A DNA stretch of 64,000 bases from Hoeflea prorocentri. GTDB lineage: Bacteria > Pseudomonadota > Alphaproteobacteria > Rhizobiales > Rhizobiaceae. The notes under the pieces are model-generated. The model was not told the DNA's origin. It made no database searches and worked only from the letters and a program-made list of their open reading frames with translations. The translations under genes were made by a program, and so were the position numbers. Positions 35,099 through 56,945 of the stretch are shown here, in pieces (positions within the stretch are counted from its first letter, which is position 1; every line of letters starts with the position of its first letter). The stretch lies in the NCBI RefSeq assembly GCF_027944115.1, contig NZ_JAPJZI010000001.1:2914001-2978000 (forward strand), given 5' to 3'.

Positions 35099-36655
35099 TC
35101 AACTCAAGGTGCGGGGATCAAAAGGCGTTCGTGGTGCCTGAGCTCGGATCAGGTCGCTCTTGCGTTCCGCCATTGCAACAATTGCTGCATTGTGCGGCCC
35201 CGTTGTGGCCTGCGGAATGATCGAGCCGTCGATCACATGCAGCCCTTCCGTGCCGCGCACCACAAGAGCTGGATCGACCACGGCTTCGTCGTCGGAGCCC
35301 ATCCGGCATGTCCCGACAGGATGGTGATGAGTAAAGGCGGCTTTCTGAAGAAAATCCAGCTTCTCCGCGCGTGTGTTGAGTTCAACACCCGGCAGAAACT
35401 CTTCCTTGCGCCAATCGGCAAAAGCCTGCGAATGCCCGATCGCGCGGGTTCGCTCCATCGCTTCTATGTAAATTTCGCGATCGTATTCTTCGGCCAGATA
35501 GTTTGGATCGATGTCAGGAGCCACCGTTGGATCGGCGGACCGAAGACGAATGGCGCCGCGGCTCCTGGGATGTGTGAAGCCGAACATCAGAGTATAGGCT
35601 TCCCCAAACGGTGGCGGATCAAAGGCATCGGTGGCAATGGGAACGACGACGCAGGCGGCCACCATCTCGGGCGCCAGTTTGTCATCGCCGTTTCGCGATG
35701 AATAAAGCAGCGACTCCGAGTGCTGGGTCTGTGTGAACGGAACCTCGTCTTTGGACAGATAGACATTTCCACCTGAAAGTAAGTGGTCCTGGAGATTCTG
35801 CCCGACACCAGGCAGGTCGACCCGTGTGGATATTCCCAGCTTGGCCAGTTCGTCCGCCGACCCGATGCCGGAACGCATCAGGATCGCCGGCGAATTGATG
35901 ACACCGGCGCACAGAACGACCCCTTCCCGAGCCTCGATATGCACAGGCTTGCCGTCGACGATCAGATGAAGTCCCGAGCATCGCGTGCCGGTAAAGGCTA
36001 AACGGTCGACCAGACAACCGGTTCGAACCGTCAGATTCGCTCGTGAAAGCGCCGGTGTCAGATAGGCATCAGCAACGCTCTGGCGCTTACCGTCGACGAT
36101 CACCAGGGTATTGAGGGTCGGCCCCGTCATCCGGGCGCCGTTGTGTTCGCGCGTCGGCACATGCCCCTGCTCTTCAGCAGCGGCCATGAAGCATCGCGTC
36201 AGGGGATGCGGATCGCTCGGAACCATCTGCCGGATCGGTCCCTGATCGCCGTGGTAGGGCGACGGTGCAAAGGGCGATGTTTCCGATGCGATGAAATAGG
36301 GCATCAGATCAGCATAACCCCAGCCCTCACAGCCAGCCGCAGCCCAGCCATCGAAATCGCTGGGATGGCCGCGCACATGCGCCATCGCATTGATGCAACT
36401 CGATCCGCCCACGACGAAACCCCTTGCCCAATCATGGATGCGATTGGCGGTGTGGCGCTGCGGCACCGTCTTGAAGGCCCAGTCGATGTCCGAGCCTTCC
36501 AGCATTGGCCACATGGCAGGCTCCGAGATTGCTGGTTCGTCGGCCTCACCACCCGCTTCAATCAGACAGACGGTTGCGTCTTCGTCCTCGCTCAGGCGCG
36601 CCGCCAGAACGCATCCGGCCGTGCCGGCGCCGACAATCAGATAGTCATACTGCAT
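35099..36655 (-). CDS. Pyridoxine 4-oxidase (GMC oxidoreductase)
   Basis: 518 residues from the ATG at 36655. GMC fold: FAD motif 'VGAGTAGCVLAARLSE', 'WARGFVVGGSSCINAMAHVR', 'NLQDHLLSGGN', and the active-site His region 'HHHPVGTCRMG'. Specific stretches ('VRGHPSDF', 'TQHSESLLY', 'FGFTHPRSRGAI', 'AIGH', 'WRKEEFLPG') match what I recall of the M. loti pyridoxine 4-oxidase structure, which oxidises pyridoxine to pyridoxal with O2. It is transcribed after the GntR gene. The presence of five other B6-pathway genes in this region supports the assignment. Confidence 0.8.
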   Translation of the reverse strand: MQYDYLIVGAGTAGCVLAARLSEDEDATVCLIEAGGEADEPAISEPAMWPMLEGSDIDWAFKTVPQRHTANRIHDWARGFVVGGSSCINAMAHVRGHPSDFDGWAAAGCEGWGYADLMPYFIASETSPFAPSPYHGDQGPIRQMVPSDPHPLTRCFMAAAEEQGHVPTREHNGARMTGPTLNTLVIVDGKRQSVADAYLTPALSRANLTVRTGCLVDRLAFTGTRCSGLHLIVDGKPVHIEAREGVVLCAGVINSPAILMRSGIGSADELAKLGISTRVDLPGVGQNLQDHLLSGGNVYLSKDEVPFTQTQHSESLLYSSRNGDDKLAPEMVAACVVVPIATDAFDPPPFGEAYTLMFGFTHPRSRGAIRLRSADPTVAPDIDPNYLAEEYDREIYIEAMERTRAIGHSQAFADWRKEEFLPGVELNTRAEKLDFLQKAAFTHHHPVGTCRMGSDDEAVVDPALVVRGTEGLHVIDGSIIPQATTGPHNAAIVAMAERKSDLIRAQAPRTPFDPRTLS

Positions 36656-36739
36656 TCCGTGCTGGTCCTCGCGCGACACTATTTTCAATTCTCTTGCGGC
36701 CAGTCTGGCAACTCCGACGCGTGCCCAAGCTGCGCCCTT

Positions 36740-37432
36740 TCATTCGGCAGCCGTGGACGTGCCCGCGCTAAAGTCAGGTGACATGCGGTCGAAGATCACG
36801 GCGCGCACGGCCAGCAGATGCTGGCGCATGCACTCCTGTGCCAAGTCCGGATCTCGGGCAGCGATCGCCCGTGCGATCTTAAGATGCTCCGCATCCCGCT
36901 TGCGTCGCCGGTCCGGGCATGGCGGGGCACGATCCGGCAACCGAACCCGCGCATCACCGCCAACCTGGCGAAGAATCCTGTAAAGCTCGCGCGCTAGTGT
37001 GTTGCGTGTCGCACTTGCAATTTCAAGGTGAAAGGCCAAATCCGGTGCGCCGTAGGACTCTTCCTTCTGGCTGTTGGCCGCTTTGACAATCCGCTCCGCT
37101 TCGAGCGACGACGCCTTCAGCGCCGCCAGTCGCGCAAGCTGCGGTTCGATAATCAGACGCAGTTCAATCACATCGGTTGGATTGGCGAGGCGCACGAGGT
37201 TCTGGACCTGGGGATTTGTTTCGCGAAAATTGCGGCGTCCGACACGTGCCGGCGGAATCAGGTTGTCTTCTCTCATCTCCGCCAGAATGCGCCGCAGGCG
37301 CGAGCGGGTGATGCCGAACTCCTCGACCAATTCCCGTTCTGGCGGAAGCGTGCCGTCTTCGCTGGCCAGATCCGCGATCGTTTCCTTCAACTCTTCCGCA
37401 GAAAGCCTGGCTGACTTTCGGTCTTCAGTCAT
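36740..37432 (-). CDS. GntR-family regulator (FCD) of the B6 cluster
   Basis: 230 residues. Winged helix with 'PPERELVEEFGITRSRLRRIL' (30-50), then an FCD effector domain ('VIELRLIIEPQLARLAA'). Located between and divergent from the second GMC gene, co-directional with pyridoxine 4-oxidase. An 8-bp-arm inverted repeat in the divergent gap is a candidate binding site. Its ligand is presumably a B6 vitamer or pyridine acid (inference). Confidence 0.85.
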   Translation of the reverse strand: MTEDRKSARLSAEELKETIADLASEDGTLPPERELVEEFGITRSRLRRILAEMREDNLIPPARVGRRNFRETNPQVQNLVRLANPTDVIELRLIIEPQLARLAALKASSLEAERIVKAANSQKEESYGAPDLAFHLEIASATRNTLARELYRILRQVGGDARVRLPDRAPPCPDRRRKRDAEHLKIARAIAARDPDLAQECMRQHLLAVRAVIFDRMSPDFSAGTSTAAE

Positions 37433-37470
37433 AACGTCCTTTGAATCTCCCTGGAAACCATTTGAAACAT

Positions 37471-37501: not shown

Positions 37502-37559
37502 GACATAATTGGTTGCACAATGGTTTGCTTTGTGAACAGACTTTTTGGGGGTGACGGGA

Positions 37560-39284: not shown

Positions 39285-40433
39285 ATGTCAGCAACCGCGA
39301 CGTCTGATACCGGTGCCAACAGGAAAGAAGCGCTGAAAGGTCTGCACTCCGACGTGTTCAGCGCGAACATGCATCCTTTCTGGGCAACCACCAAGGACGT
39401 GGAGCATGACGAAGTGGCGCAATTGATGTCGCCGCAAAAGGCCGTTCCCTGGGTGTGGAAATATTCCGATATCGGACCTTTGCTGGAACGGGCCGCCGAG
39501 CTGATCACCATGGCCGACAGCGACCGACGCTCTCTCGTTTTGGTCAATCCCGGGCTGGCGCCGCGGCGCGCTTCCGTCACGACCATGTATACAGCCTACC
39601 GTTTCAACGGGGTCGACGAGATCATGCCCCCGCACAAACATTCGGCGAGCGCCTGCCGTTTCGGTCTTCTGGGCGGCGGCAATTTCACCAGCGTTGAAGG
39701 CGAAAATGTCGTTTTCGGTCCAGGTGACATGATTTTGACGCCAAACGACGCCTGGCACAATTTCGGCAGCATCGGCAACGAGGGCGCCCTCAACCTTTCG
39801 GTTCTCGACTTCCCATTGGTGGAGACGCTGCACGCGCTGGAATTCCACCATCACTACACCGAGATGGAAAACGGAAAGGAAGTCGAAAAGAAGGAACAGT
39901 CCGCGCGCTATCCCGTTGACTACTCCAAGCTCGTTTATGGCCAGGGCGGTATGATGCCGCGCTTCGTGGATCATCACCGGGCGGGTGGCTTTGCATCCCC
40001 TCAGGTCGTCTATCGCTGGGAGGCGATGGAAACGCTGCTTGATGCTCACAAGGACCACGACGGCGATCCACATGACGGTATCATCATCGATTACGTCAAT
40101 CCGCGAACCGGCGGACCCGTGTTCGAAACGATCAACTATTACATTCAGATGCTGCGCCCCGGCGAAAAGACGGCACCGAAGCGGGAGACAGCCAATCTGT
40201 TGCTGGCGCCATTCAAGGGCAAGGGACACTCCATCGTCGATGGAGAGCGATTTGACTGGGAAGAATTCGACACGCTGGCGGTTCCGGGTGGTTGCTGGGT
40301 GGAGCATGTCAATCCGTCCCAGACCGAACCGGTGATCCTGTTCGGCGCCACCGATTCTCCAACTCAGAAGAAACTCCATCTCTACAAGAGCTGGGGCCGC
40401 AACCAGGCAGGCGACCTGCTTCGTCTGGCATAG
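39285..40433 (+). CDS. Bicupin ring-cleavage dioxygenase (gentisate/salicylate dioxygenase family)
   Basis: 382 residues with two cupin domains, the length and layout of gentisate, salicylate and 1-hydroxy-2-naphthoate dioxygenases. The first cupin keeps the Fe(II) ligands: H117 and H119 in 'PPHKHSASACRF' and H158 in 'DAWHNFG'. The second (from about 285) lacks the HxH pair, as usual. The family opens rings bearing OH next to COOH or a second OH. Placed among B6-degradation genes, it may cleave a hydroxypyridine carboxylate, a role not described for M. loti (inference). Confidence 0.78.
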   Translation: MSATATSDTGANRKEALKGLHSDVFSANMHPFWATTKDVEHDEVAQLMSPQKAVPWVWKYSDIGPLLERAAELITMADSDRRSLVLVNPGLAPRRASVTTMYTAYRFNGVDEIMPPHKHSASACRFGLLGGGNFTSVEGENVVFGPGDMILTPNDAWHNFGSIGNEGALNLSVLDFPLVETLHALEFHHHYTEMENGKEVEKKEQSARYPVDYSKLVYGQGGMMPRFVDHHRAGGFASPQVVYRWEAMETLLDAHKDHDGDPHDGIIIDYVNPRTGGPVFETINYYIQMLRPGEKTAPKRETANLLLAPFKGKGHSIVDGERFDWEEFDTLAVPGGCWVEHVNPSQTEPVILFGATDSPTQKKLHLYKSWGRNQAGDLLRLA

Positions 40434-40455: not shown

Positions 40456-41631
40456 ATGGCGCCTAAGACCTCCCCACAAAACAGGCGAGAAAGCGACTAT
40501 CCTTTGGCAGATGCTCTCAACACCACGCTTCTAGCGCATATTGACTGCCCCGGAGGGGGGCAGGTCTGGGTGGACGGCACGACCCTCTATATTGGACACA
40601 TGCGTTTTCCCTCCGGGACAACCATCGTGGACGTGGCGGATCCGCGGCAACCGAAGGTGATCAGCAAAATCGGCGTTCCGGATGGCTGGCACTCACACAA
40701 GGTGCGCGTTGCAAACGACCTTATGCTCGTCAATCACGAAAAGATCGGTCAGGAAGGCGATCATAGCTTCGGCGGCGGTCTCGGTATCTATGACGTGGCC
40801 GATCCGTCCAACCCGCGCCTTCTGTCCAAATGGCGAACCGGCGGTCGCGGCGTTCACCGATACGATTTCGACGGGCGCTATGCCTATATCTCACCGACCG
40901 CCGACGGTTATGTCGGCAATTTCGTGATGATCCTGGACCTCAAAAACCCCGAAAAACCTGAAGAGGTCGGTCGGTGGTGGATCCCCGGGCAGTGGCAGGG
41001 AGGTGGCGAAGACTACCCCTGGGACGATTGGGTTCCGCCCCGTTGCCATCATCCGATCCGGCGTGGAGACCGCCTCTATGTCAGTTACTGGCATCACGGA
41101 TTGTTCATTCTCGACATTTCCGACATGTCGAAACCCAAGGCGATCTCGAGTCTGAATACGAGCCCGGTGTATCCCCACCCGACCCATACCTGCCTGCCGT
41201 TCAAGGAAAAGATTGCAGGCCGTGACATCATGATCGTAGCCGATGAAGATGTCGCCAAACTCTATCCCTCGCCACCGGCGTTCACCTGGGTCTACGACAT
41301 CACGGTGGAGACCATTCCGACCTCGATCGCGACATGGCAGGTCGAAGGACTGCATGGGGATGGCTCCCCGCAGGAGCCGATGACCGGCTGCCACCAGCCA
41401 TCGGAGCGCGTGGCCGGCACGATCGTACCCTTTGCCTGGTTTGCCCAAGGCCTGCGGATTGTCGATTTTGCCGATCCGTACAGTCCTCGCGAGCTCGGCC
41501 ACTTCCTTCCAGACGTGCCGGAGTCGCAGGCGCGGCCGTCATCAAACGATGTGACGATCGATGACCGCGGCATCATTTATCTGATCGACCGGATCCACGG
41601 CGTGGACATCATCGAAACCAGCGTTTTCTGA
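40456..41631 (+). CDS. LVIVD-repeat beta-propeller protein, possible metalloenzyme
   Basis: 391 residues built of repeats of the type 'VDVADP..P' and 'YDVADPSNPRLLSKW', the LVIVD propeller pattern. No signal peptide, so cytosolic. Histidines recur at blade positions ('WHSHKV', 'GVHRYDF', 'RCHHPIR', 'YWHHGLF', 'PHPTHTC', 'GCHQPSE'), reminiscent of His-metal centres of carotenoid-oxygenase and selenium-binding-type propellers, though this comparison is only by pattern. It lies between the bicupin and RidA genes, so a catalytic part in the same pathway is plausible. The start has no strong ribosome site. Confidence 0.7.
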   Translation: MAPKTSPQNRRESDYPLADALNTTLLAHIDCPGGGQVWVDGTTLYIGHMRFPSGTTIVDVADPRQPKVISKIGVPDGWHSHKVRVANDLMLVNHEKIGQEGDHSFGGGLGIYDVADPSNPRLLSKWRTGGRGVHRYDFDGRYAYISPTADGYVGNFVMILDLKNPEKPEEVGRWWIPGQWQGGGEDYPWDDWVPPRCHHPIRRGDRLYVSYWHHGLFILDISDMSKPKAISSLNTSPVYPHPTHTCLPFKEKIAGRDIMIVADEDVAKLYPSPPAFTWVYDITVETIPTSIATWQVEGLHGDGSPQEPMTGCHQPSERVAGTIVPFAWFAQGLRIVDFADPYSPRELGHFLPDVPESQARPSSNDVTIDDRGIIYLIDRIHGVDIIETSVF

Positions 41632-42695: not shown

Positions 42696-43610
42696 ATGCA
42701 AATCGCGATCATAGGCATGGGTTCCATGGGCCCCGGGATGGCGGCGCGGATTGCGCGCGGTGGGCATGATGTCCGTGCCTTCGATATCGCCGAAGCCGCT
42801 CGAGGGCGGGCGGCATCGCTGTTGCCGATGATCGTCTCCGCGCTCGATGGCCTGGAGATCAAAGATCAGGGCGGCAATCTTTCCTTTGCCGGGTCACTCG
42901 AGGAAGCGGTAGCGGGGGCTGACCTGGTCATCGAGAACATTCCCGAGAACATCGATACGAAAGCAGCGCTTTATCGCGAACTGGACCCGCTTCTGGCTGC
43001 CGACACGATTGTCGCGACAGACACCTCCGGCATCCCGATCACGAAGCTTCAGGCACACATTTCGCACCCCCGGCGATTTGTCGGCATGCACTGGTCAAAT
43101 CCGCCGCATATCGTGCCGATGATCGAGGTCATTGCCGGCGAGCAAACGGCGCCGGACGTCGTGACCGCAATACAGACCCTGATCCGCGATCTTGGTTTGC
43201 TGCCGGTGACCCTGAAGAAGGACGTGCCCGGGTTCGTCGAGAATCGCGTGCTCTACGCGCTTTTGCGAGAATGCGTCGACCTGGTGGAACGCGGTGTTAT
43301 CGACCCGGAAGATCTCGACACCTGTGTCAACTGGGGTATCGGCTACAAGTTAGCTGTCATCGGTCCCATGCGGCTCCTCGATATGGCAGGCCTGGACATC
43401 TACCAGTCCGTATCCTCGTTTCTGAACGCTGAGCTATGCAACCGCGACGATGTCTCGCCGATGGTGACAACAGCAACCGAAAAGGGCCAGCTTGGCATGA
43501 AAACCGGTGGCGGCCTTTTCGACTACACGGAAGAGGACCTCACTGCTTTTCCGCGCGAACGCGCACAGACCTTGATCGCGGTACGCAAGATCCTGGAGGA
43601 TCGGTCATGA
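42696..43610 (+). CDS. 5-formyl-3-hydroxy-2-methylpyridine-4-carboxylate dehydrogenase (FHMPCDH)
   Basis: 304 residues, 3-hydroxyacyl-CoA dehydrogenase fold: 'GMGSMG' (7-12), catalytic H132 in 'GMHWSNPPH' and E144 in 'PMIEV'. Long stretches ('VPGFVENRVLYALLRE', 'VERGVIDPEDLDTCV', 'GIGYK', 'IGPM', 'SVSSFLNA') match my memory of M. loti FHMPCDH, which oxidises the 5-formyl group with NAD+ to give 3-hydroxy-2-methylpyridine-4,5-dicarboxylate. It therefore is not a fatty-acid enzyme. Its stop overlaps the TRAP small permease start by ATGA. Confidence 0.85.
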   Translation: MQIAIIGMGSMGPGMAARIARGGHDVRAFDIAEAARGRAASLLPMIVSALDGLEIKDQGGNLSFAGSLEEAVAGADLVIENIPENIDTKAALYRELDPLLAADTIVATDTSGIPITKLQAHISHPRRFVGMHWSNPPHIVPMIEVIAGEQTAPDVVTAIQTLIRDLGLLPVTLKKDVPGFVENRVLYALLRECVDLVERGVIDPEDLDTCVNWGIGYKLAVIGPMRLLDMAGLDIYQSVSSFLNAELCNRDDVSPMVTTATEKGQLGMKTGGGLFDYTEEDLTAFPRERAQTLIAVRKILEDRS

Positions 43611-44107
43611 CTCGTCCATCCGGAAGCTTGGGCGCGCGGGCACTTGAGACACTCAAGCTCCTACTGGGTCTTGCACTTGTGTTGATGGTGGTTCTGAACA
43701 TCGTCAATGCTGCCGGACGCTATGGCGGCCTCCCCGTTCCGGGCGGCATGGACGAACTTCTGGTAATCGCCATGATCTGGGTCGTCATGATCGGCTGCAT
43801 TCTGGCGACGCATGACCGTACGCACCTGGCGATCAATCTTCTGCCCCAGTCGCTGAACAACGACCGCCGTCGCGTCCTCGAAACACTTGTGACCTTTCTG
43901 ACGGCTGGCGTCTGTGCGTTTGTTGCCTGGCATTCATGGACCTTCATCGAACGCATCGGTGCGATCGGGCAAAAGAGCATGGGGCTCGGGGTTCCGATGG
44001 TCGTGCCGCACCTGGCCATTTTTGTCGGATTTGCCGGTACCGCCCTCGTTTCGTTGGTTCTTGCGGTCACGGACTGCCGAGCCTTCTTCCAGGATCGGGC
44101 CAAATGA
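43607..44107 (+). CDS. TRAP transporter small permease (DctQ type)
   Basis: 166 residues with four predicted helices and the DctQ feature 'WVVMIGCILATHDRTHLAIN' near 60-80. Starts at the ATG overlapping the FHMPCDH stop and ends overlapping the DctM start, so the three are translationally coupled. Part of a sodium-driven carboxylate importer, perhaps for pyridoxate or another pyridine acid. Confidence 0.9.
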   Translation: MTRPSGSLGARALETLKLLLGLALVLMVVLNIVNAAGRYGGLPVPGGMDELLVIAMIWVVMIGCILATHDRTHLAINLLPQSLNNDRRRVLETLVTFLTAGVCAFVAWHSWTFIERIGAIGQKSMGLGVPMVVPHLAIFVGFAGTALVSLVLAVTDCRAFFQDRAK

Positions 44108-45378
44108 TATGGGCCATCGCGCTAACAATCGTGTTGCTGGTTGCGCTTGGCGCGCCGATCTTCGTCGCACTGCTGGCAGGCGCGGCTGTAGGGCTCTCGA
44201 TGTTCAACGGACCCCCGCTGATCGCCTTGCAGCAGACAATTTTCGGCGGACTGGATGCCTACGCGCTGCTGGCCGTGCCGTTCTTCGTCTTCGCAGGAGA
44301 GCTGATGGCCGCCTCGGGTATCGCGAACCGGCTCATCGCGCTGGTCCAGGCCTTGTTCGGTCGCGTTCCGGGGTCGCTGGGTATCGCGGCACTCGGCGGT
44401 TCTACCCTGATCGGGACGATATGCGGTTCCTCTGCTGCCGCGGTCGCGGCTGTAGGCAAGAACATGTACCCGCGGCTTCTGGACGCCCAATACGGTCAGC
44501 GTCGGGCGTCCGGGATCATTACGTCATCAGGTGCGATCGACATTGTCATCCCGCCGTCCATCGCCATGATCCTCTACGGAGCGGCCGCGGAACAGAGCAT
44601 TCCCAAACTGTTCATCGCCGGGATCGTGCCGGGACTATTCGTGGCACTTTTGATGGGTATTTACATCTCAGCATCAGCTCGTTTCTCCGGCCTGCCGACG
44701 GAAGGCCGGTTCGACCCACGTTCGACGATCATCGCGTTTCAAAAGGCGATCGGCGCGTTGTTCATGCCGGTTTTTATCCTGACGGGAATTTACGCGGGCG
44801 CCTTTTCGCCGACAGAGGCCGGTGGCTTTGCCTGCGCCTATGCCATCATTCTCGGGCTGGTCTTCTACCGCAGCCTGACTTTGTCGGACATTCTGGCCGC
44901 AGCTGCCCGTGCAGCGATGATCACAGCGCAAATCATGGTCGTTGTTGCCGCAGCAAGCGTGATTTCCTGGCTGCTCACCGTCAAGGGAGTGCCGCAAGCG
45001 CTGATTGCCGGAATTATCGACGCCGGCCTGTCACCGCTGATGTTTCTATTGGCGGTGAACGTTTTTTTGCTCGCCACCGGCTGCTTCCTCGATCCGACTT
45101 CGGCGATTTTGGTTCTGGCACCACTGCTGGTCCCGATCGCCATCGCTCTCGGTATCGACCCCATCCATTTCGGGGTCATCATGACGGTGAACCTTGCGAT
45201 CGGAATGTTCACACCGCCATTCGGGCTCAACATTTTTGTCGCCCAATCCGTCCTCGGCGTGTCGGCAGCGGACATCTATCGCGGAGTCCTGCCCTTTGTA
45301 GCCGTGCAAACCATAGCCCTGGCAGTCATCACGCTCCTGCCGGTGCTGTCTCTGTGGCTCGTCCGCGCAATGTCATAA
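44104..45378 (+). CDS. TRAP transporter large permease (DctM type)
   Basis: 424 residues from the ATG at 44104 in the ATGA overlap with DctQ; the frame is open further upstream only within dctQ. Features 'VPFFVFAGELMAASGIANRL', 'GTICGSSAAAVAAVG', 'IPPSIAMILYGAAAEQSI' and 'MTVNLAIGMFTPPFGLN' are DctM hallmarks across about 12 helices. Forms the channel with the upstream DctQ. Confidence 0.92.
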   Translation: MIWAIALTIVLLVALGAPIFVALLAGAAVGLSMFNGPPLIALQQTIFGGLDAYALLAVPFFVFAGELMAASGIANRLIALVQALFGRVPGSLGIAALGGSTLIGTICGSSAAAVAAVGKNMYPRLLDAQYGQRRASGIITSSGAIDIVIPPSIAMILYGAAAEQSIPKLFIAGIVPGLFVALLMGIYISASARFSGLPTEGRFDPRSTIIAFQKAIGALFMPVFILTGIYAGAFSPTEAGGFACAYAIILGLVFYRSLTLSDILAAAARAAMITAQIMVVVAAASVISWLLTVKGVPQALIAGIIDAGLSPLMFLLAVNVFLLATGCFLDPTSAILVLAPLLVPIAIALGIDPIHFGVIMTVNLAIGMFTPPFGLNIFVAQSVLGVSAADIYRGVLPFVAVQTIALAVITLLPVLSLWLVRAMS

Positions 45379-46926: not shown

Positions 46927-47934
46927 CTGGTTTTCTCACTGGTGCTGGCCGCGGCTGTAACCGCGACATCGGCCCATGCGCAGGACATCGATACCATAGC
47001 GGTTCTGACACCGGAAGTCGGCTCCGACTTTGGCTGGAATCAGCAGGGCGTCGACGCCGCCAAGGCCGCAGGCGAAGCTGCGGGCGTTAAGGTGGTCGTG
47101 GCCGAAGGCCTTGGCTATGGCGATGTCCGTGCTCCCATGCGGGAACTCGCCTCCGAAGGTGTGGACCTGATCATCGCCCATGCATCGGGCTACATCACAG
47201 CGGGCATCGAGATCGCCGAAGAGACCGGCATTCCGGTGGCTATTGTCGACAGTCCCGAAGCCCTGAAGAAAGGGCTCGTCGCCGACTACACCTTGTCGGG
47301 ACATGAAGGCGCCTGGCTTGCCGGACGCATCGCCGCCAAGATGACCAAGACGGGTACCGTCGGCATTGTCGTTTCGGGTGAACCACCATCCTGGAACTCG
47401 CAATCGGCTGGCTTTGCACAGGGCGTGCGCGCTGAAAACCCAGACGTGAAGATCCTCTACGCAGTCATCGGACCGGCAGCTTATGCGGATGTCGCTGGTG
47501 GCAACCGGGTGACAACCTCCGTCATCGCAGCCGGCGCCGACATCATCTTTGGTCAAGGCAACGGATCGACCTTCGGTATGCTGCAGGCTGTCGAGACCAA
47601 CAAGGCGCCCGACGGCTCCGATGTCCTGTTCATCGATGTGATCGGCGACAAGACGTCCGTCGACAAGGGCCACCTGCTGACGTCGGTCCTGTGGGACATG
47701 ACTCCGGTCTACTCCGCAATGATCACCGACTTGAAGGCCGGTTCGTTTGGGACCAAGCACTATGCCATCAGTGTCGAAGGCGATAGCGTGAAGCTGATCA
47801 AGACACCGCAGATGCCGGACGATGTCTGGGCCGCTGCTATGGATCTGCGAGAGCAGATCGTGTCGGGTGATGTTTCGCTCGAGCCGATCTTCGATGCCGA
47901 AGAAGTGCGCAAACTGGTCACCTTGACAGAGTAA
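46918..47934 (+). CDS. BMP-family ABC transporter solute-binding protein
   Basis: 338 residues with a signal peptide ending 'TSAHAQ' near residue 22. BMP/Med fold: 'VGSDFGWNQQGVDAAKAAG', 'GYGDVRAPMRELASEGVDLI', 'GHEGAWLAGRIAAKM'. These proteins bind purine nucleosides and some other heterocycles. AGGAG ribosome site just upstream. Followed without gaps by its ATPase, two permeases and three B6 enzymes, so a pyridoxine, pyridoxal or pyridoxamine ligand is a reasonable guess. Confidence 0.88.
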   Translation: MKHLVFSLVLAAAVTATSAHAQDIDTIAVLTPEVGSDFGWNQQGVDAAKAAGEAAGVKVVVAEGLGYGDVRAPMRELASEGVDLIIAHASGYITAGIEIAEETGIPVAIVDSPEALKKGLVADYTLSGHEGAWLAGRIAAKMTKTGTVGIVVSGEPPSWNSQSAGFAQGVRAENPDVKILYAVIGPAAYADVAGGNRVTTSVIAAGADIIFGQGNGSTFGMLQAVETNKAPDGSDVLFIDVIGDKTSVDKGHLLTSVLWDMTPVYSAMITDLKAGSFGTKHYAISVEGDSVKLIKTPQMPDDVWAAAMDLREQIVSGDVSLEPIFDAEEVRKLVTLTE

Positions 47935-47938: not shown

Positions 47939-49507
47939 ATGGAGAATGATCTTTCCTGCAATGAGGAGCGTGTATCACTCGTCAATGTGACCAAGCGGTT
48001 TCCCGGTGTGGTCGCTGTCGACAAGGTGTCGCTGTCTTTCCATGCGGGAGAGGTTCATGTCCTTCTGGGAGAAAACGGGGCTGGCAAGTCCACGATCGTA
48101 GGCATGCTTGCCGGCCTCCAGGAGCCCGACGAGGGCCACATCACAGTCGATGGGCGTCAAGTGCGCCTGTCGAGCCCAACCGAAAGCCTGGCCCACGGAA
48201 TCAACACGGTCTTCCAGCACGTCATGCTGGTGCCGACGCTCACGGTTTTCGAGAATCTGATACTGGGAGCCCCATGGTGGACGCGTCCACCGCGCAGTGA
48301 AATCGAGCATCGGGTCAAAGAGTTATCACGCGAATTCGGATTGTCGGTCCCACTGGATGCACGTACGGGTGACCTTTCGCTCGGAGAACAGCAACAGATT
48401 GAGATCGCACGGGCGCTGCTGCGCGACAGCAGAGTGCTTATCCTCGATGAAGCGACCTCGATGCTGACCCCGCGAGGTGCCGATGAGCTCGGTGATCGAA
48501 TGCGAAGACTTGCAGGGCGGGGCATCTGCGTCATTTTCATCACCCACAAGCTGAGTGAGGCCTATCGTTTTGGCGACCGTATCAGCATCCTGAAACAGGG
48601 CCGTTTCGCCGGCGCCATCGCTCCGGAACGCCTCTCCGAAATGACCGAGGAAGAGGCCATCGAGGAGAAGGTCCGGTTGATGTTCGGACAGAGCGATCAA
48701 GGCCGGGCAGAGACAACCAGGACAAGCCAAGATCCCGGAGAAATGTGCCTGGCTGTCGAAGGCCTTGCGACGGAAGGCGAAGCGGAGATCCTTGCCCTCT
48801 CTGACATTTCCTTCGAACTGCGTGTCGGAGAAATTCTCGGCATTGCCGGTATTGACGGCAACGGACAAAAACAACTTGCGGAAGCTCTCGCCGGGCAACG
48901 GACGGCGACAGCCGGGAGGATCGCGCTGGACGGCGTGGATATCACCCGCCTACCCGTGGGGCGCCGCCGTAAACTCGGGCTGCGCTACCTCACCGACGAC
49001 AGGCTGCGGGAAGGCAGCGTCGGCGAGTTTCCGGTCTCCCACAATGCCGTGCTTAAGGAGATCGGTGCGCGGCCCTTTTGGGTGCGCGGCGTCGAGCAGG
49101 CCCGCAAGATCGCCGATCATGCCATCCATCTCATCCATCAATTCAGCGTCAAGACGCCTGACGAAAAGACGCCGATTGGCCACCTCTCCGGAGGCAATAT
49201 CCAGAAGTTGCTGCTCGGCCGCGAACTGTCGGGCGAGGCGCGTGTCGTGGTCTTCAACAAGCCCACCTATGGGCTTGACCTGCAGAACATTTCCGCCTCG
49301 CGGAAGCGGATCCGCGCCATCGCCAACGCCGGCATGGCCGCCCTGCTCATTTCGACGGATCTCGATGAGATTCTCGAACTGTCCGACCGCATTATGGTGA
49401 TGGAACGCGGACGAGTGCGCGGCATTGTCGAAAACGACCCCGCACGGCCGGATGAGTTGCGGCAAACGGTCGGGCGGCTGATGGTCGGCGAGGATCTGGC
49501 GGCATGA
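47939..49507 (+). CDS. ABC transporter ATPase with two nucleotide-binding domains (nucleoside/sugar type)
   Basis: 522 residues. Domain 1: Walker A 'GENGAGKST', signature 'LSLGEQQQIEIARAL', Walker B 'VLILDEATS'. Domain 2 has a degenerate Walker A ('GIDGNGQKQ'), signature 'LSGGNIQKLLLGREL' and Walker B 'VVVFNKPT' with Asn-Lys in place of the usual Asp-Glu, so it is likely catalytically weak, as common in this family. Energises the two BMP-type permeases that follow. Confidence 0.9.
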   Translation: MENDLSCNEERVSLVNVTKRFPGVVAVDKVSLSFHAGEVHVLLGENGAGKSTIVGMLAGLQEPDEGHITVDGRQVRLSSPTESLAHGINTVFQHVMLVPTLTVFENLILGAPWWTRPPRSEIEHRVKELSREFGLSVPLDARTGDLSLGEQQQIEIARALLRDSRVLILDEATSMLTPRGADELGDRMRRLAGRGICVIFITHKLSEAYRFGDRISILKQGRFAGAIAPERLSEMTEEEAIEEKVRLMFGQSDQGRAETTRTSQDPGEMCLAVEGLATEGEAEILALSDISFELRVGEILGIAGIDGNGQKQLAEALAGQRTATAGRIALDGVDITRLPVGRRRKLGLRYLTDDRLREGSVGEFPVSHNAVLKEIGARPFWVRGVEQARKIADHAIHLIHQFSVKTPDEKTPIGHLSGGNIQKLLLGRELSGEARVVVFNKPTYGLDLQNISASRKRIRAIANAGMAALLISTDLDEILELSDRIMVMERGRVRGIVENDPARPDELRQTVGRLMVGEDLAA

Positions 49508-50592
49508 CGGAAACCCAGGTGCCGCAGGCGTCGACCGAGGACATCGGATCCGTCCAAAGACCGGAAAACCCGTGGAAGCGGGCCGCGATTACCTCGCTTG
49601 GACCGATTGTCGCAGCCGTCGTTCTGTCGGGATTGATCCTCCTTGCCTTCGGCGTGGATCCGATCGCCTATTACGGCTTCGTCATTGAAAAGGGTCTCTT
49701 GTCGTCGCTTGGCTTGCAGCAAACCCTGACCCGCATGGCCCCTCTGCTGTTTCTTGCGGCCGGCTTGATCGTCGCCTTCCGGGCCGGGATATGGAACCTC
49801 GGCGTGGACGGGCAGTTCCTGCTGGGTGCCGTCGGCGCGGCGGCGCTGGCGCCGGTGCTGGTCGAGACGATGCCCGGCTGGCTGGTGTTGTTGCTGGGCT
49901 TCCTGTTGGCCGGACTGATCGGAGCGGCATGGTCGGTGATCCCTGCCCTGCTTCGGGCCTATCAGGGCGTCAACGAGATCATCACGACGCTGATGATGTC
50001 TTTTCTTGGCGTTTCCATCGCGAACGCGCTCGTAAAGCTGGTGTTCTGGGACCCGAACACGACGGTTCCTCAGACAAGAACCCTTCCCGTGGCCGATCGG
50101 CTTCCGCGGTTGTTCGATACGACGATTTCATCTGGCGTGCTCTGGGCGCTGCTTGCCATCCTCGCCGTCCATTTCGTCATGACCCGAACTGCCTTTGGCC
50201 TGCGTCTCCGCACCGTTGGCGCCAATCCGCGCGCGGCCACCCATGCCGGGCTCTCCGTTCCGCTGCTGACCGTTGCCGTATTTGCCATTTCGGCCGGATT
50301 TGCTGGCCTGGCGGGCGCAACGGAGATCCTCGGCGTCAACGGAAACATCCGCACGGACTGGAATCCGGCCTACGGGTTGACGATCATTCCGCTGGTCTTT
50401 CTGGCACGGTTCAACGGACCGGTGTCGATCATCCTGATCTTCTTCTATTCCGTAATTCTGATCGGCAGTGAAAGTGCCGCTCGAAGAGTGGGCGTGCCGC
50501 AGGATTTCCGGCTGATCCTGGTCGGGATGCTCATGATCTTTCTGGGACTGGCGGAATGGCTGGATACCAGAAGCAGAAAGCGGGCGGGTTAG
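49504..50592 (+). CDS. ABC transporter permease (BMP/nucleoside type), subunit 1
   Basis: 362 residues with about ten helices after a short cytoplasmic N-terminus. Pattern 'RAGIWNLGVDGQFLLGAVGAA' and 'YQGVNEIITTLMMSFLGVSIAN' are characteristic of the YufP-type permeases that pair with BMP proteins. Starts in an ATGA overlap with the ATPase. Confidence 0.9.
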   Translation: MTETQVPQASTEDIGSVQRPENPWKRAAITSLGPIVAAVVLSGLILLAFGVDPIAYYGFVIEKGLLSSLGLQQTLTRMAPLLFLAAGLIVAFRAGIWNLGVDGQFLLGAVGAAALAPVLVETMPGWLVLLLGFLLAGLIGAAWSVIPALLRAYQGVNEIITTLMMSFLGVSIANALVKLVFWDPNTTVPQTRTLPVADRLPRLFDTTISSGVLWALLAILAVHFVMTRTAFGLRLRTVGANPRAATHAGLSVPLLTVAVFAISAGFAGLAGATEILGVNGNIRTDWNPAYGLTIIPLVFLARFNGPVSIILIFFYSVILIGSESAARRVGVPQDFRLILVGMLMIFLGLAEWLDTRSRKRAG

Positions 50593-50595: not shown

Positions 50596-51531
50596 ATGGA
50601 AGCTCTTCTGACATCGGCCTTCATTTCGTCGCTGCTGACCGGGGCGATCATTGCCGGAATTCCGCTCCTGCTGGCGGGCCTTGGCGAGCAGATGTCGGAG
50701 AAGGCCGGCGTCCTGAACATCGGCATCGAGGGCATGATGATCATGGGCGCCTATCTGGGCTTTCTGGTCGCCTGGGCCACCGAATCGATATGGCTCGGCT
50801 TTCTCGGCGGCATGGCGGGCGGCATGTCGGTGGCGCTGTTGATGGCGGTCCTGTGCGTGCGTCTGGGGCTGAACCAGATCGTCATCGGAATTGGACTGAC
50901 GCTGAGCGCTGAAGGGTTGACGTCGCTCCTGCACCACTTTCAGTTTTCGCGAACCTACCCGCGTCTGCCGGCGCCGGTCAGGCTCGATATTCCGATGCTG
51001 ACGGATATCCCCGTCATTGGGCCATCGTTCTTCGGCCGTCATTTGTTCGTCTATCTGGTGTTCTTGGCGGTGATCGTCCTGGCCGTCCTTTATCGCAAGA
51101 CCGCCCTGGGACTGACACTGCGCGCTGCCGGCGAAAAGCCTGCGGCTCTCGATGTCGCGGGTGGGCATGTCACCCTTTTGCGCAGCGCCGCGGTGCTTTT
51201 CACGGGTGCCATGGCCGGCCTTGGCGGCGCCTACATGGCAAATATTGCGGCAGGCATCTTCATTCCGTTCATGACTGGTGGCGCCGGGTTCATCGGCATC
51301 GTTCTGGCCATGCTGGCCCGCGACCGTCCCGTCTGGGTGTTGATCGGCGCCATGATCTTCGGATCGACTCTTTCCATGACCACCGCGTTGCAGGTGGCCG
51401 GGTCGAACATACCCACCGACATCATTCAGACGTTGCCGTTCGCGGCCGTCATGATCGTCCTCGTAATCTTCGGCCGCCGTGCCCACCTGCCCTCCGCGCT
51501 CGGCCTGCCATACGAACGGGGAGCCCGATAG
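50596..51531 (+). CDS. ABC transporter permease (BMP/nucleoside type), subunit 2
   Basis: 311 residues, about nine helices. 'LAGLGEQMSEKAGVLNIGIE' followed by 'GMMIMGAY' is the YufQ-type hallmark. Ends 28 bases before the 4-pyridoxolactonase ATG, so the importer and the B6 enzymes are on one transcript. Confidence 0.9.
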   Translation: MEALLTSAFISSLLTGAIIAGIPLLLAGLGEQMSEKAGVLNIGIEGMMIMGAYLGFLVAWATESIWLGFLGGMAGGMSVALLMAVLCVRLGLNQIVIGIGLTLSAEGLTSLLHHFQFSRTYPRLPAPVRLDIPMLTDIPVIGPSFFGRHLFVYLVFLAVIVLAVLYRKTALGLTLRAAGEKPAALDVAGGHVTLLRSAAVLFTGAMAGLGGAYMANIAAGIFIPFMTGGAGFIGIVLAMLARDRPVWVLIGAMIFGSTLSMTTALQVAGSNIPTDIIQTLPFAAVMIVLVIFGRRAHLPSALGLPYERGAR

Positions 51532-52365
<834 letters not shown>

Positions 52366-52376
52366 ACAGGTGACGC

Positions 52377-53555
52377 ATGCGATATTCCAAAACACGCCCG
52401 CCGGCCTTCACGCTGTCCGCTGGCCCCGTCGACGCCTATCCCGAGGTTCTTCGCGGAATGGGCACGACCGTCCTTTACGACTTCGATCCGGCATTCCTCC
52501 ATGTCTATGAAGGCGTCGCCAGGAAAGCCCAAACAGCCATGGACATGAACGAACCACCGGTGATCCTTCACGGTGAACCGGTGCTAGGACTGGAGGCTGC
52601 AGCCGCGTCGCTGATCGCCAGAGAAGACGTCGTGCTTAATCTGGCTTCCGGTGTTTACGGCAAGGGTTTCGGCTATTGGGCCACCCGCTATGCCAGCCGG
52701 GTGGATGAGATTGAAACCGACTACGATGATGCCATTGACCCCGGCGCTGTTGCCGAGCATCTGAAGAAGCACCCGGAAACCGCAGTTGTCTCGGTGGTGC
52801 ACCATGACACGCCTTCTGGGACGCTCAACGACATCAATGCCATCGGTCAGGTCGTCGCCGACGCCGGCGCCCTGCTAATCGTCGACGCCGTGTCATCCTG
52901 GGCCGGGATGGAAACGTCCCCAGCAGCATGTCAGGCCGGCATCTACATCACCGGCCCGAACAAGTGCCTGGGGTGTCCGCCGGGGTTGACGATGGCGGCC
53001 GTGTCCGATGCCGCTTGGGAGAAGATGGAAGCGAACAAGGACGCGCCCTTCGCCTCCATGCTGTCCTTTACCGACTGGAAAAATGCCTGGAAGGCGAGCG
53101 AGCCGTTTCCGTTCACGCCATCCGTTGCCGAGATCAACGGGCTGGACACGGCGCTTGACAGGTATCTGGAAGAAGGGCCGGAGGCTGTCTGGGAGCGCCA
53201 CGCGCTGACGGCAGCGGCCACCCGCGACGGCGTTCGTGCCATGGGCGTCGACATATGGCCCAAACGGGAAGAGATCGCTTCCCCGACCTGCACCGCGGTG
53301 CGGATGCCCGACGGAGTGGACGCCGGTCCAGTTCTGGCCGAGGCCCGCGCCCGGTATGGCGTCAGCATGTCCGCGGGTCGCGCTGAAACGCTGGGCAAAC
53401 TGATCCGCATCGGCCACATGGGCCCGACGGCGCAACCGGCTTACGCCCTTGTGGCGGTCGCCGCGTTGGGTGGAGCGCTGCAGGCACTGGGCACAAACGC
53501 TGACATTGCCGCAGGCCTCGGAGCTGTGCAGGCTCGAATGGATCAAGGTCTATAA
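52377..53555 (+). CDS. Pyridoxamine-pyruvate aminotransferase
   Basis: 392 residues, class V aminotransferase fold. The schiff-base Lys is K196 in 'GPNKCLG'; 'LHGEPVLGLEAAAASL' holds the Glu (E67) that I recall as important for binding pyridoxamine. 'LNLASGVYGKGFGYWA', 'HHDTPSGT', 'PFPFTPSV' and 'AGRAETLGKLIRIGHMGPT' match the M. loti enzyme closely. It transfers the amino group of pyridoxamine to pyruvate, giving pyridoxal and L-alanine, and does not need bound PLP. Related serine-glyoxylate aminotransferases are a less likely reading. Confidence 0.9.
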   Translation: MRYSKTRPPAFTLSAGPVDAYPEVLRGMGTTVLYDFDPAFLHVYEGVARKAQTAMDMNEPPVILHGEPVLGLEAAAASLIAREDVVLNLASGVYGKGFGYWATRYASRVDEIETDYDDAIDPGAVAEHLKKHPETAVVSVVHHDTPSGTLNDINAIGQVVADAGALLIVDAVSSWAGMETSPAACQAGIYITGPNKCLGCPPGLTMAAVSDAAWEKMEANKDAPFASMLSFTDWKNAWKASEPFPFTPSVAEINGLDTALDRYLEEGPEAVWERHALTAAATRDGVRAMGVDIWPKREEIASPTCTAVRMPDGVDAGPVLAEARARYGVSMSAGRAETLGKLIRIGHMGPTAQPAYALVAVAALGGALQALGTNADIAAGLGAVQARMDQGL

Positions 53556-54326
<771 letters not shown>

Positions 54327-54426: not shown

Positions 54427-55962
54427 ATGCCAACGACAATCGCCTCCCTGATCGCTGACCATGCGGACGACAGTCCGGCAATCGGTGCGCCGGGTCGCTC
54501 TTGGCTGACCTACGGTCAATTGCGGTCGCTTACCGATGACGTTTCCCAGGCACTGGCGGCCATGGGAATCGGACGTGGTGACCGCGTGGCGATCGTGCTC
54601 GACAACGGACCTGAGATGGCCTGTGCGTTCATCACGATTGCTCAGGCGGCGACGACGGCGCCGCTCAATCCGGCGTACCGTGAAGAGGAATATGCCTTCT
54701 ACCTGGAGGATCTTCAGGCCAAGGCGCTTGTGGTGGCGGAAGACTATGGCGGCCCGGCGCTGGCGGCCGCCGAAACGAGCGGGGCCATGATCGTGCGCCT
54801 CGCGTCCGACGCCGATGGACCGGCGGGCGTATTCCGGCTGTCCAGACCAGCAGTCGATGGTGCAAAGGCCGCCGGCAACCCGGACGAAAACGATGTCGCC
54901 CTGATCCTGCACACCTCGGGCACCACGTCGCGCCCCAAGATCGTACCGCTGACCCAGTCCAATATCCACGCTTCGGCAAACAACATCCGGTCATCGTTGG
55001 CGCTGACACCCGAAGATCGCTGTTTGAATGTCATGCCGCTGTTTCACATTCACGGCTTGATCGCTGCGGTCGCTTCGTCGCTGGCCGCAGGAGCATGCAT
55101 AAGCTGTGCCCCCGGGTTCAATGCGTTACGCTTCTACGCTCAGCTCAAGGAAGTTGCACCCAGTTGGTACACGGCCGTTCCGACCATGCACCAGGCGGTC
55201 CTTGCCCGCGCAGCGCGCAACCGGGAAATCATCGATAGCGCCGGTCTTCGGTTCATCCGGTCGTCGTCCGCATCGCTGCCGGCACCGGTCATGGAGGAGC
55301 TGGCCGCAACCTTCGGCGCGCCCGTGATCGAAGCTTATGGCATGACTGAAGCCACCCACCAGATGTGCAGCAATCCCTTGCCGCCCCGCGCACAAAAACC
55401 AGGATCCGTGGGCTTGGCTGCCGGCCCGGACGTGCAGATTGCCGCCGAGACCGAAAATAGTCTGCTCGAGCCGAGTGCAACCGGTGAAATCGTGATCAGC
55501 GGCCCGAACGTGACACCCGGGTACGAGGGCAATCAGGATGCCAATGCCGCCAGTTTCTTCATGGCCGATGACAAACGCTGGTTCCGCACCGGTGATCAGG
55601 GATCGTTTGATGAAGAGGGCTATCTTCGCCTGACCGGACGGCTGAAAGAGATCATCAACCGGGGCGGCGAGAAGATCAGTCCGCTTGAGGTGGACGCGAT
55701 CTTGCTCAGCCATCCTGATATTGCTCAGGCTGTGTGCTTTGCTGTGCCGCATCCGAAACTGGGCGAAGACATCTCGGCCGCAATCGTTCTGGCCGAAGGC
55801 TCCGAGCTTGATGAAAAGACGGTTCGCACGTTTGCTGCAGAACGGCTCGCCGACTTCAAGGTGCCGCGTTCGGTGGTGATCCTGGAAGAAATTCCCAAGG
55901 GGGCGACCGGGAAGATCCAACGCATCGGCTTGGCTGAAAAACTCGGCCTCGGGAGGACCTAG
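54427..55962 (+). CDS. AMP-forming acyl-CoA synthetase (oxalate-CoA-ligase-like)
   Basis: 511 residues. ATP-binding 'HTSGTTSRPKIVPLT', 'YGMTEATHQMCSNPLPP' and 'KPGSVG', the hinge 'YLRLTGRLKEIINRGGEKISP', and the C-terminal catalytic Lys in 'PKGATGKIQR'. The 'EA.HQM.SNPLP' stretch is that of the oxalyl-CoA synthetase branch (AAE3/Pcs60), pointing to a small dicarboxylate or oxo acid. As part of the B6 cluster it may activate a ring-cleavage product (inference). It ends two bases before the likely start of the next gene. Confidence 0.8.
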   Translation: MPTTIASLIADHADDSPAIGAPGRSWLTYGQLRSLTDDVSQALAAMGIGRGDRVAIVLDNGPEMACAFITIAQAATTAPLNPAYREEEYAFYLEDLQAKALVVAEDYGGPALAAAETSGAMIVRLASDADGPAGVFRLSRPAVDGAKAAGNPDENDVALILHTSGTTSRPKIVPLTQSNIHASANNIRSSLALTPEDRCLNVMPLFHIHGLIAAVASSLAAGACISCAPGFNALRFYAQLKEVAPSWYTAVPTMHQAVLARAARNREIIDSAGLRFIRSSSASLPAPVMEELAATFGAPVIEAYGMTEATHQMCSNPLPPRAQKPGSVGLAAGPDVQIAAETENSLLEPSATGEIVISGPNVTPGYEGNQDANAASFFMADDKRWFRTGDQGSFDEEGYLRLTGRLKEIINRGGEKISPLEVDAILLSHPDIAQAVCFAVPHPKLGEDISAAIVLAEGSELDEKTVRTFAAERLADFKVPRSVVILEEIPKGATGKIQRIGLAEKLGLGRT

Positions 55963-55964
55963 CT

Positions 55965-56945
55965 ATCAGGATCTGTGTATTCGGCGCCGGTGCCATCGGC
56001 GGATATCTTGGGGTCAAGCTGGCGCAAGCCGGAATGGATGTGAGTCTGGTGGCTCGCGGCCCGCACCTGAACGCCATGCGCGAAAAAGGTCTGACCCTGA
56101 TCGAAGAGGACCAGGCGCCGGTCACGGTGCCGGTCACTGCGTCTGACGATCCTGCGGAGCTTGGCGTCCAGGACTATGTCATCGTCACGCTCAAGGCGCA
56201 TTCGGTTCCGCCCGTGGTCGGACGGATGCAGCCGCTATTCGGTGACAACACCACTGTGGTCAGCGGCGTCAACGGAGTGCCGTGGTGGTATTTCCACAAG
56301 CTCGGCGGCCCGCTCGAGGGCCGTCGTCTTGCCTCCGTCGATCCGGGCAATGCCCAGTGGGACGGCTTCGGGCCGGACCGCGTCCTGGGATGCGTCGTGT
56401 ATCCGGCGGCAGAGGTGATCGAGCCGGGAGTGATCAGGCACATCGAGGGAAACCGCTTTTGTCTTGGCGAACCCGACGGATCGAAGTCCGATCGGGCGAA
56501 GGTGCTGTCCGAAGCAATGATCAAAGCCGGGCTGAAGGCGCCGGTGCGTCCGCGCATCCGCGACGAAATCTGGGTGAAGCTATGGGGTAACCTCTCCTTC
56601 AATCCGATCTCGGCTCTGACCCATTCGACGCTGGACGTGCTGTGCACCGATCCCGGCACCCGGGCGGTGGCGCGGGCCATGATGGTCGAGGCGCAAGAGA
56701 TCGCTGAGAAACTGGGTGTGCGCTTCCCGATCGACGTCGATCGCCGCATCGACGGCGGCGCTGCTGTCGGCGCCCACAAGACTTCCATGTGGCAGGACCT
56801 GAATCTCGGCCGCCCAATGGAAATCGACGCGCTGGTCACAGCCGTCCAGGAATTGGGCCAGCTGACCGGGACACCAACACCGACCATCGACACGGTCTTG
56901 GCTCTGATCCAGCTACGAGGGCGAACGGCTGGGCTTTACGGCTGA
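55965..56945 (+). CDS. Ketopantoate-reductase-like (ApbA/PanE) oxidoreductase, likely ATC start
   Basis: 326 residues if initiated at the ATC at 55965. The Rossmann motif 'FGAGAIGGYLG' begins four codons later, and GGGAGGA (55951-55957) lies seven bases upstream. The frame has no ATG, GTG or TTG between its upstream stop and residue 24, and the first ATG (56034) would delete the NADPH-binding strand. Homologues typically begin 'MRIC.FGAGAIGG', aligning M with this ATC. C-terminal 'KLWGNLSFNPISALTHST' and 'RPMEIDALV' are PanE-family marks. Probably reduces a 2-oxo acid with NADPH; not necessarily ketopantoate. Confidence 0.75.
   Translation: MRICVFGAGAIGGYLGVKLAQAGMDVSLVARGPHLNAMREKGLTLIEEDQAPVTVPVTASDDPAELGVQDYVIVTLKAHSVPPVVGRMQPLFGDNTTVVSGVNGVPWWYFHKLGGPLEGRRLASVDPGNAQWDGFGPDRVLGCVVYPAAEVIEPGVIRHIEGNRFCLGEPDGSKSDRAKVLSEAMIKAGLKAPVRPRIRDEIWVKLWGNLSFNPISALTHSTLDVLCTDPGTRAVARAMMVEAQEIAEKLGVRFPIDVDRRIDGGAAVGAHKTSMWQDLNLGRPMEIDALVTAVQELGQLTGTPTPTIDTVLALIQLRGRTAGLYG

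Follow-up and report, generated by a model that had tools for sequence, protein, structure and literature searches.

How does a bacterium that carries the upper half of a known vitamin B6 degradation pathway open the pyridine ring, when the enzymes known for the later steps are not in the cluster? This question is raised by a 64,000-nt stretch of the Hoeflea prorocentri genome (the window, G000:C1:2914001-2978000; the genome comprises 5.04 Mb in two contigs), in which a vitamin B6 cluster occupies positions 35099-56945. From the encoded proteins and their distribution among relatives, the probable answer is that a Mesorhizobium loti-type upper route leads into a new lower route, in which a cupin would cleave 3-hydroxy-2-methylpyridine-4,5-dicarboxylate (HMPDC) between C3 and C4, an accompanying cassette would process the product, and oxalate would be assimilated. 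That the ring of HMPDC is opened by a new route appears likely. The protein families of the cluster were scored against Pfam, NCBIfam (bits compared with the equivalog cut-off) and PDB sequences, and the genes, whose open reading frames were confirmed at these coordinates, are arranged as follows.

35099..36655, minus strand: pyridoxine 4-oxidase (GMC, FAD); best PDB match 4ha6, 456 bits
36740..37432, minus strand: GntR/FCD regulator, between the divergent halves; FCD 69.7 bits
37560..39218, plus strand: second GMC oxidoreductase, likely 4-pyridoxate dehydrogenase; GMC domains, synteny and 59-61% identity to classical clusters
39285..40433, plus strand: bicupin belonging to the gentisate/salicylate 1,2-dioxygenase family, putative HMPDC 3,4-ring-cleaving dioxygenase; 3bu7 186 bits, near full length
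40456..41631, plus strand: protein with LVIVD repeats, probably a beta-propeller, proposed to hydrolyse the product of ring opening; PF08309
41639..42031, plus strand: RidA-family protein, proposed for imine/enamine hydrolysis; PF01042
42069..42668, plus strand: GST-family protein, proposed glutathione-dependent isomerase; GST_N/GST_C, low-scoring match to MaiA (32 of 171 bits)
42696..43610, plus strand: FHMPC 5-dehydrogenase (FHMPCDH), which makes HMPDC; NF042925 524 bits (cut-off 500), 4om8 438 bits
43607..44107, plus strand: small TRAP permease subunit (DctQ-like); by position, without NCBIfam match
44104..45378, plus strand: TRAP large permease (DctM-like); assigned from its place and its hydrophobic sequence, both cluster types containing a homologue
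45398..46411, plus strand: TRAP substrate-binding protein (DctP); NF037995 150 bits (cut-off 50)
46918..47934, plus strand: putative B6 ABC transporter, binding protein; NF047927 495 bits (cut-off 400)
47939..49507, plus strand: putative B6 ABC transporter, ATPase; NF047930 813 bits (cut-off 670)
49504..50592, plus strand: putative B6 ABC transporter, permease 2; NF047929 546 bits (cut-off 400)
50596..51531, plus strand: putative B6 ABC transporter, permease 1; NF047928 556 bits (cut-off 465)
51559..52365, plus strand: 4-pyridoxolactonase; NF047925 484 bits (cut-off 325)
52377..53555, plus strand: pyridoxamine-pyruvate aminotransferase (PPAT); NF046070 643 bits (cut-off 600)
53583..54326, plus strand: pyridoxal 4-dehydrogenase (PLDH), short-chain dehydrogenase type; NF047923 420 bits (cut-off 325)
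54427..55962, plus strand: probable oxalyl-CoA synthetase (AMP-forming); PDB matches at E<=1e-60, best 5ie0, 427 bits
55965..56945, plus strand: PanE-like reductase, candidate oxalyl-CoA reductase; NF005089 482 bits, start probably a rare codon near 55965

None of the three later enzymes of the classical route, HMPDC decarboxylase, MHPCO and AAMS hydrolase (AAMSH), was found among the scanned cluster proteins of the window, just as the first-pass annotation had claimed for the cluster. The queries were the proteins of a relative, G007 (locus L052), which matched PDB entries 3kxp (AAMS hydrolase, 453 bits), 3alj (MHPCO, 762 bits) and 2z7b (Mlr6791, which we take to be the HMPDC decarboxylase, 447 bits). 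Searching the window's whole genome gave no match for AAMSH at E<=1e-20 or for the decarboxylase at E<=1e-15, and no MHPCO orthologue was found, the best flavin hydroxylases being 33% (88 bits) and 30% identical; the MHPCO orthologues in 14 relatives of the query genome are 82-94% identical. That is, orthologues of the three enzymes for the lower part of pathway I were found neither in the cluster nor, at the thresholds used, elsewhere in the genome.

The distribution of the same genes in 199 genomes of the same family indicated what takes their place. PPAT, defined as present at E<=1e-100, occurs in 34 of these genomes, 32 of them over the NCBI cut-off. MHPCO, AAMSH and decarboxylase orthologues (at least 82, 73 and 74% identical, respectively) are found together in the same 15 of the 34 PPAT-positive genomes, hereafter called classical, with MHPCO 14.5-16.1 kb from PPAT on the same contig in all 15. 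The window's cupin (at least 72% identity) is present in nine others of the 34 with no overlap with the classical three, and ten have neither set. Moreover, these nine are the only genomes among the 199 with the cupin, so that every cupin-bearing genome of the family is PPAT-positive. If genomes are taken as independent, the chance of the lack of overlap is 0.0018 and that of the nesting in PPAT-positive genomes 4.7e-8, both values being made optimistic by relatedness. The swap also occurs inside a single genus label (g14), in which G013 and G116 are classical and G186 is cupin-type. Neighbourhoods were fetched for four of the 15 classical genomes, the other 11 being known from the coordinates of their PPAT, MHPCO, AAMSH and decarboxylase matches. 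In G007, AAMSH, MHPCO and Mlr6791-type proteins sit between pyridoxine oxidase and the second GMC; apart from this, most genes, and the order in which they stand, are common to the cupin clusters and the four fetched classical ones. Outside the 15, weaker MHPCO-like proteins (29-41%) were seen in G000, G084, G160, G176, G178 and G189. These comparisons indicate that the lower-half swap is real and recurrent. The absence of the three enzymes, together with a recurrent, mutually exclusive cassette in relatives, supports the earlier proposal that other enzymes fill their place and that the lower route differs.

A third type of cluster was observed in G084 (L056-L057), G189 (L058-L059), G178 (L036-L037) and G057 (L050-L051). 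It comprises PPAT, a pyridoxine oxidase-like GMC and the B6 ABC transporter, and no lactonase, FHMPCDH or cupin set was present in the stretch fetched; these genomes are without classical lower-enzyme orthologues. This cluster type is perhaps another B6 route.

The upper half of the window's cluster had been read from the sequence as six genes of the M. loti-type route, and this reading holds. NCBIfam equivalog cut-offs were passed by four B6-degradation enzymes (PPAT, PLDH, 4-pyridoxolactonase and FHMPCDH) and by all four subunits of the putative B6 ABC transporter, and pyridoxine oxidase and FHMPCDH best matched their own solved structures (4ha6 and 4om8), so that low similarity of the upper enzymes does not speak against the assignment. 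No equivalog match was obtained in the NCBIfam scan for the second GMC (37560-39218). In the four fetched classical clusters, its 59-61% identical homologue directly precedes FHMPCDH and, in G007, directly follows the decarboxylase, which is also the order (decarboxylase, second GMC, FHMPCDH) of mlr6791-6792-6793 in M. loti. Because of this synteny, the second GMC is taken as the likely 4-pyridoxate dehydrogenase. The upper part of pathway I is complete with pyridoxine oxidase, PPAT, PLDH, pyridoxolactonase and FHMPCDH when 4-pyridoxate dehydrogenase, placed by synteny alone, is included. Homologues of the GntR/FCD regulator (45-52%) lie at the same place in those of the family's cupin-type clusters that were fetched that far, and in G880. 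The TRAP transporter is common to classical and cupin clusters, and was therefore ruled out as a part specific to the new branch.

Beyond the family sample, cupin matches at E<=1e-80 were obtained in 7 of 385 genomes sampled from the class, probably Alphaproteobacteria, and 3 of 398 phylum-sample genomes, the window's own genome being counted in both. One of them, G355, has a 41% cupin match with no B6 genes around it, and the remaining seven genomes carry six family labels (f1, f25, f37, f40, f73 and f83). A scan of named genome contigs yielded one relative, an Acetobacteraceae metagenome-assembled genome (L035). Together with the nine family genomes, these make up the cupin-type set (n=17). 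The LVIVD gene accompanies the cupin at all 17 loci, RidA and GST each at 16 (not in G487), and FHMPCDH at 16 (not in L035). Furthermore, an LVIVD homologue of at least 64% identity was found in exactly the 17 cupin-type of 43 genomes searched, identity elsewhere being at most 36%. PPAT lies in the same stretch as the cupin set in five of the eight loci outside the family sample (G269, G363, G538, G682 and G880). For MHPCO, five of these eight gave no match at E<=1e-20 and three have 29-42% ones only. Two neighbouring 42% MHPCO-like proteins are encoded at G487:C37:82444-84683, in a cupin-type genome with a minimal cassette. Plasmid-borne copies of the cassette were rejected: in the plasmid collection, the cupin matched in 83 records (E<=1e-30) and the LVIVD protein in 65 (E<=1e-20), and every one of these matches is below 60% identity.

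What reaction could the cupin catalyse? Pfam recognized one Cupin_2 stretch in it. Like members of the gentisate 1,2-dioxygenase family (cupin class III), the protein has the three iron-binding His together with the pocket Arg and Asp, but it does not appear to be a gentisate 1,2-dioxygenase proper, as it falls below the curated model (191 of 442 bits, and 209 of 650 bits for the 5-aminosalicylate model; NCBIfam) and carries Arg at position 108 of salicylate 1,2-dioxygenase (SDO). SDO positions were numbered by alignment. The alignment and tree hold 16 of the 17 cupins, that of G089 (76% over 274 residues, at a contig end) being excluded. The iron ligands His117/119/158, plus Arg81/82, Arg125 and Asp175, are kept in all 16 full-length cupins. 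SDO Gly106-x-Gln108 is replaced by Ala-x-Arg in 16 of 16; in nine reference proteins, position 108 is Gln (seven) or Ser (two), never Arg, and position 106 is Gly (eight) or Ala (one). Excerpts of two papers describe SDO Gln108 as contacting the substrate carboxylate and as conserved among gentisate dioxygenases (PMC11264262, PMC10306065). The cupins form a clade of their own with 100/100 support; several reference branches are long, and such joins carry a warning from the tool. Plain gentisate degradation was rejected as the function, since the cupin scores far below the gentisate model and lies outside the reference branches, and separate cupin paralogues exist in cupin-type genomes (four genomes; 37-38% identical in three and 30% in the fourth).

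According to the accessible text of one study, gentisate/salicylate-type enzymes cleave between the hydroxyl-bearing and the carboxyl-bearing carbons (PMC10306065). HMPDC has that pair at C3 and C4, so the cupin, as an Fe(II) enzyme of this type, would bind HMPDC via the ortho pair of C3-OH and C4-COOH and cleave it directly at C3-C4. Direct cleavage at this bond would make the decarboxylase and the flavin oxygenase unnecessary. The ring-opened product would be HOOC-CO-C(COOH)=CH-N=C(CH3)-COOH, that is, an imine of pyruvate carrying a 2-oxo acid. This product would be isomerised by the GST, its imine or enamine hydrolysed by RidA, and a further hydrolysis carried out by the LVIVD protein, giving pyruvate, ammonia and formyl-oxaloacetate. 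C-C hydrolysis of the latter next to the 2-oxo acid would release oxalate along with malonate semialdehyde, and the synthetase and PanE-like reductase would take oxalate to oxalyl-CoA and on to glyoxylate. What is least certain in the scheme is the sequence of the steps that follow ring opening and which protein carries out which of them. A third B6 catabolic route specified to this degree, with C3-C4 cleavage by the cupin, hydrolysis of the pyruvate imine by RidA and a beta-propeller hydrolase, pyruvate, ammonia and malonate semialdehyde as end products, and oxalate assimilated by a dedicated synthetase and reductase, could equally turn out to be right or wrong.

Some features of the cassette proteins are consistent with such roles. 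Hydrolysis of imines and enamines, for example 2-iminopropionate, is a known activity of RidA proteins. Isomerisation, as in the gentisate pathway, may be the role of the GST. The LVIVD alignment, which holds 16 of the 17 proteins (that of G134, a short frame, was excluded), contains many invariant His, and the window's protein has a weak profile match to the haloalkylphosphorus hydrolase 5hrm; both would suit a metal-dependent hydrolase but do not show it. On a Skermanella mucosa plasmid (L122), a 37% LVIVD relative stands next to a tripartite tricarboxylate transporter and has an alpha/beta hydrolase nearby; the LVIVD family perhaps serves in a further catabolic process there.

The last two genes of the cluster point to oxalate. 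All four PDB sequences matched by the synthetase at E<=1e-60 are oxalate--CoA ligases, the best (5ie0) over residues 13-507, so that the protein has the full-length similarity to characterised oxalate--CoA ligases expected of an oxalyl-CoA synthetase. A synthetase homologue (at least 56% identity, E<=1e-100) is present in 11 of the 17 cupin-type and in none of the 15 classical genomes (Fisher 1e-4), and, within family f1, in 5 of 10 cupin-type compared with none of 15 classical genomes (p 0.005), relatedness being ignored in both tests. The reductase adjoins the synthetase in 10 of the 11 genomes having the latter. In the window, the first ATG of the PanE-like frame (56034) comes after the sequence for the Rossmann motif, and no ATG, GTG or TTG occurs between the synthetase stop and the motif (window 55960-56034); the reductase therefore probably starts at a rare codon near 55965. 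PanE-like homologues occur in 44 plasmid records, and for five named relatives the gene neighbourhood was examined. Azospirillum ramasamyi has oxlT at a distance of one gene from the homologue, Phyllobacterium zundukense has glyoxylate carboligase (gcl) at a distance of two, and in Methylobacterium bullatum oxlT (oxalate/formate antiporter; 630 bits, cut-off 335), reductase and synthetase follow in succession. The portions consulted of two papers report that M. extorquens PanE2 is a characterised oxalyl-CoA reductase (PMC8411744) and that it was used after oxalyl-CoA synthetase in engineered yeast (PMC12686821). The PanE-like protein is a candidate oxalyl-CoA reductase, and we regard oxalate as a product of the route as a good, testable hypothesis.

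A number of observations weigh against this reading, several of them concerning oxalate. Six of the 17 cupin genomes are without the synthetase at E<=1e-100, and in 6 of the 11 that have it the gene lies outside the B6 cluster, on another contig in G880, G682, G487, G932 and G186 and about 49 kb away in G361. For three of the six genomes without synthetase (G108, G176 and G160), no oxalate gene was found among nine selected open reading frames flanking the cupin clusters, and in two of the five PanE-like contexts opened (Skermanella rosea, and a Rhodobacteraceae plasmid with both genes) no oxalate gene is annotated close by. Absence of the synthetase and its separate location would fit an alternative in which the cupin does open the HMPDC ring and the product is processed otherwise, e.g. 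to formate and oxaloacetate or after decarboxylation, the synthetase-reductase pair being accessory for another acid. We consider this rather unlikely, since the synthetase is found in none of the 15 classical genomes and oxalate or glyoxylate genes lie near the homologues in three named relatives. Other difficulties concern the cassette itself: members of the RidA and GST families are widespread, and it is from gene position that roles are proposed for them here. In addition, residue 160 of the window's cupin is Phe, whereas the corresponding residue (SDO His162) is His in 15 of 16 clade members and 9 of 9 references; variants at the SDO site were made without settling its role, as far as the consulted part of that report goes (PMC11264262). 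Outside the family sample, the neighbourhoods fetched for G361 and G487 showed no PPAT, the rest of these genomes not having been searched for it, and G487 has only cupin, FHMPCDH and LVIVD together. Likewise, L035 is without FHMPCDH, PPAT or pyridoxine oxidase within 16.7 kb, PPAT not having been searched for elsewhere. Some cupin genomes also encode distant MHPCO-like proteins (42% in G487, 40% in G176, 33% in G000 and 29-30% in G160, G880 and G932), and a 37% decarboxylase-like protein is present in cupin-type G186.

The lack of FHMPCDH in the fetched L035 locus could mean that the cupin's substrate is an intermediate one or two steps before HMPDC, either 4-pyridoxate or the 5-formyl derivative of it, and both compounds carry the same 3-hydroxy-4-carboxylate motif by pathway I chemistry. 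This also seems improbable, as 16 of 17 loci have FHMPCDH next to the cupin set, and the extra Arg specific to the clade would fit a second carboxylate, which argues against action before HMPDC. In another alternative, the classical lower route would be intact, its steps being catalysed by non-orthologous enzymes that were not recognised and are encoded elsewhere in the genome, with the cassette serving another aromatic compound; the two distant flavin hydroxylases of the window's genome speak for it. We find this very improbable given that the genome has no AAMSH or decarboxylase match at the thresholds used, and that, within the family, the cupin is confined to PPAT-positive genomes and never occurs with MHPCO orthologues. 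Finally, the upper route might be a dead end for B6 detoxification or salvage, with HMPDC excreted. Neighbourhoods were fetched for nine of the ten PPAT-positive genomes with neither lower set, and near PPAT these carry no more than incomplete sets, so that B6 may be used in part. For the window this explanation is hardly credible, because a full upper route lies there with a conserved ring-cleavage cassette. Cleavage of HMPDC by the cupin is the reading that we retain.

Next to the B6 cluster, at 31548-34346 of the window, an L-piperidine-6-carboxylate dehydrogenase (807 bits, cut-off 730) is followed by an L-pipecolate oxidase-like protein (471 bits, cut-off 600), a probable pipecolate/lysine catabolic pair.

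If HMPDC cleavage by the cupin is correct, mutually exclusive replacement of the ring-opening half, in several families of one class, would represent a new way of opening the pyridine ring. It would supply an unnamed clade of cupin dioxygenases with a substrate and a tight clade of LVIVD proteins with its first role, would link B6 use to oxalate and glyoxylate metabolism, and would mean that RidA has a dedicated catabolic substrate resembling its housekeeping one. B6 breakdown is described, in the accessible text of PMC3538738, as the best understood of the cofactor catabolic pathways. The cupin route is absent from titles and abstract openings on B6 degradation among the matches listed; most subscription journals are uncovered, so this is no proof that the route is unpublished.

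How, then, does the locus compare with known systems? Pathway I, of Pseudomonas MA-1 and Mesorhizobium loti, shares with the window the six upper enzymes, the transporters and the gene order, its upper part ending at HMPDC. In contrast to pathway I, the window is without HMPDC decarboxylase, MHPCO and AAMSH and has cupin, LVIVD, RidA and GST instead, and acetate and succinic semialdehyde would not be expected as products. Pathway II, of Pseudomonas IA and Arthrobacter Cr-7, is also a B6 route and runs through isopyridoxal and 5-pyridoxate, whereas the window has 4-pyridoxate enzymes instead. It ends at 2-(hydroxymethyl)-4-oxobutanoate, again according to the part of PMC3538738 consulted. With gentisate, salicylate and 5-aminosalicylate 1,2-dioxygenases the cupin shares the bicupin fold, the three-His iron site and the equivalents of Arg83, Arg127 and Asp174, but it differs in forming a separate clade, in low model scores, in the Ala-x-Arg motif and in its B6 gene context. 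The gentisate pathway consists of a dioxygenase, a glutathione-dependent isomerase and a fumarylpyruvate hydrolase. The cassette shares the logic of a dioxygenase with a GST-family isomerase, whereas no FAH-family hydrolase was recognised among its proteins, RidA and LVIVD being present instead, since a nitrogen has to be removed from the ring. As in oxalate assimilation by oxalyl-CoA synthetase and PanE2, the window has a synthetase matching oxalate--CoA ligases with an adjoining PanE-like partner, but here the pair sits at the end of a B6 cluster. The novelty would thus lie in the lower branch of a known pathway and in a clade that is new within a known enzyme family.

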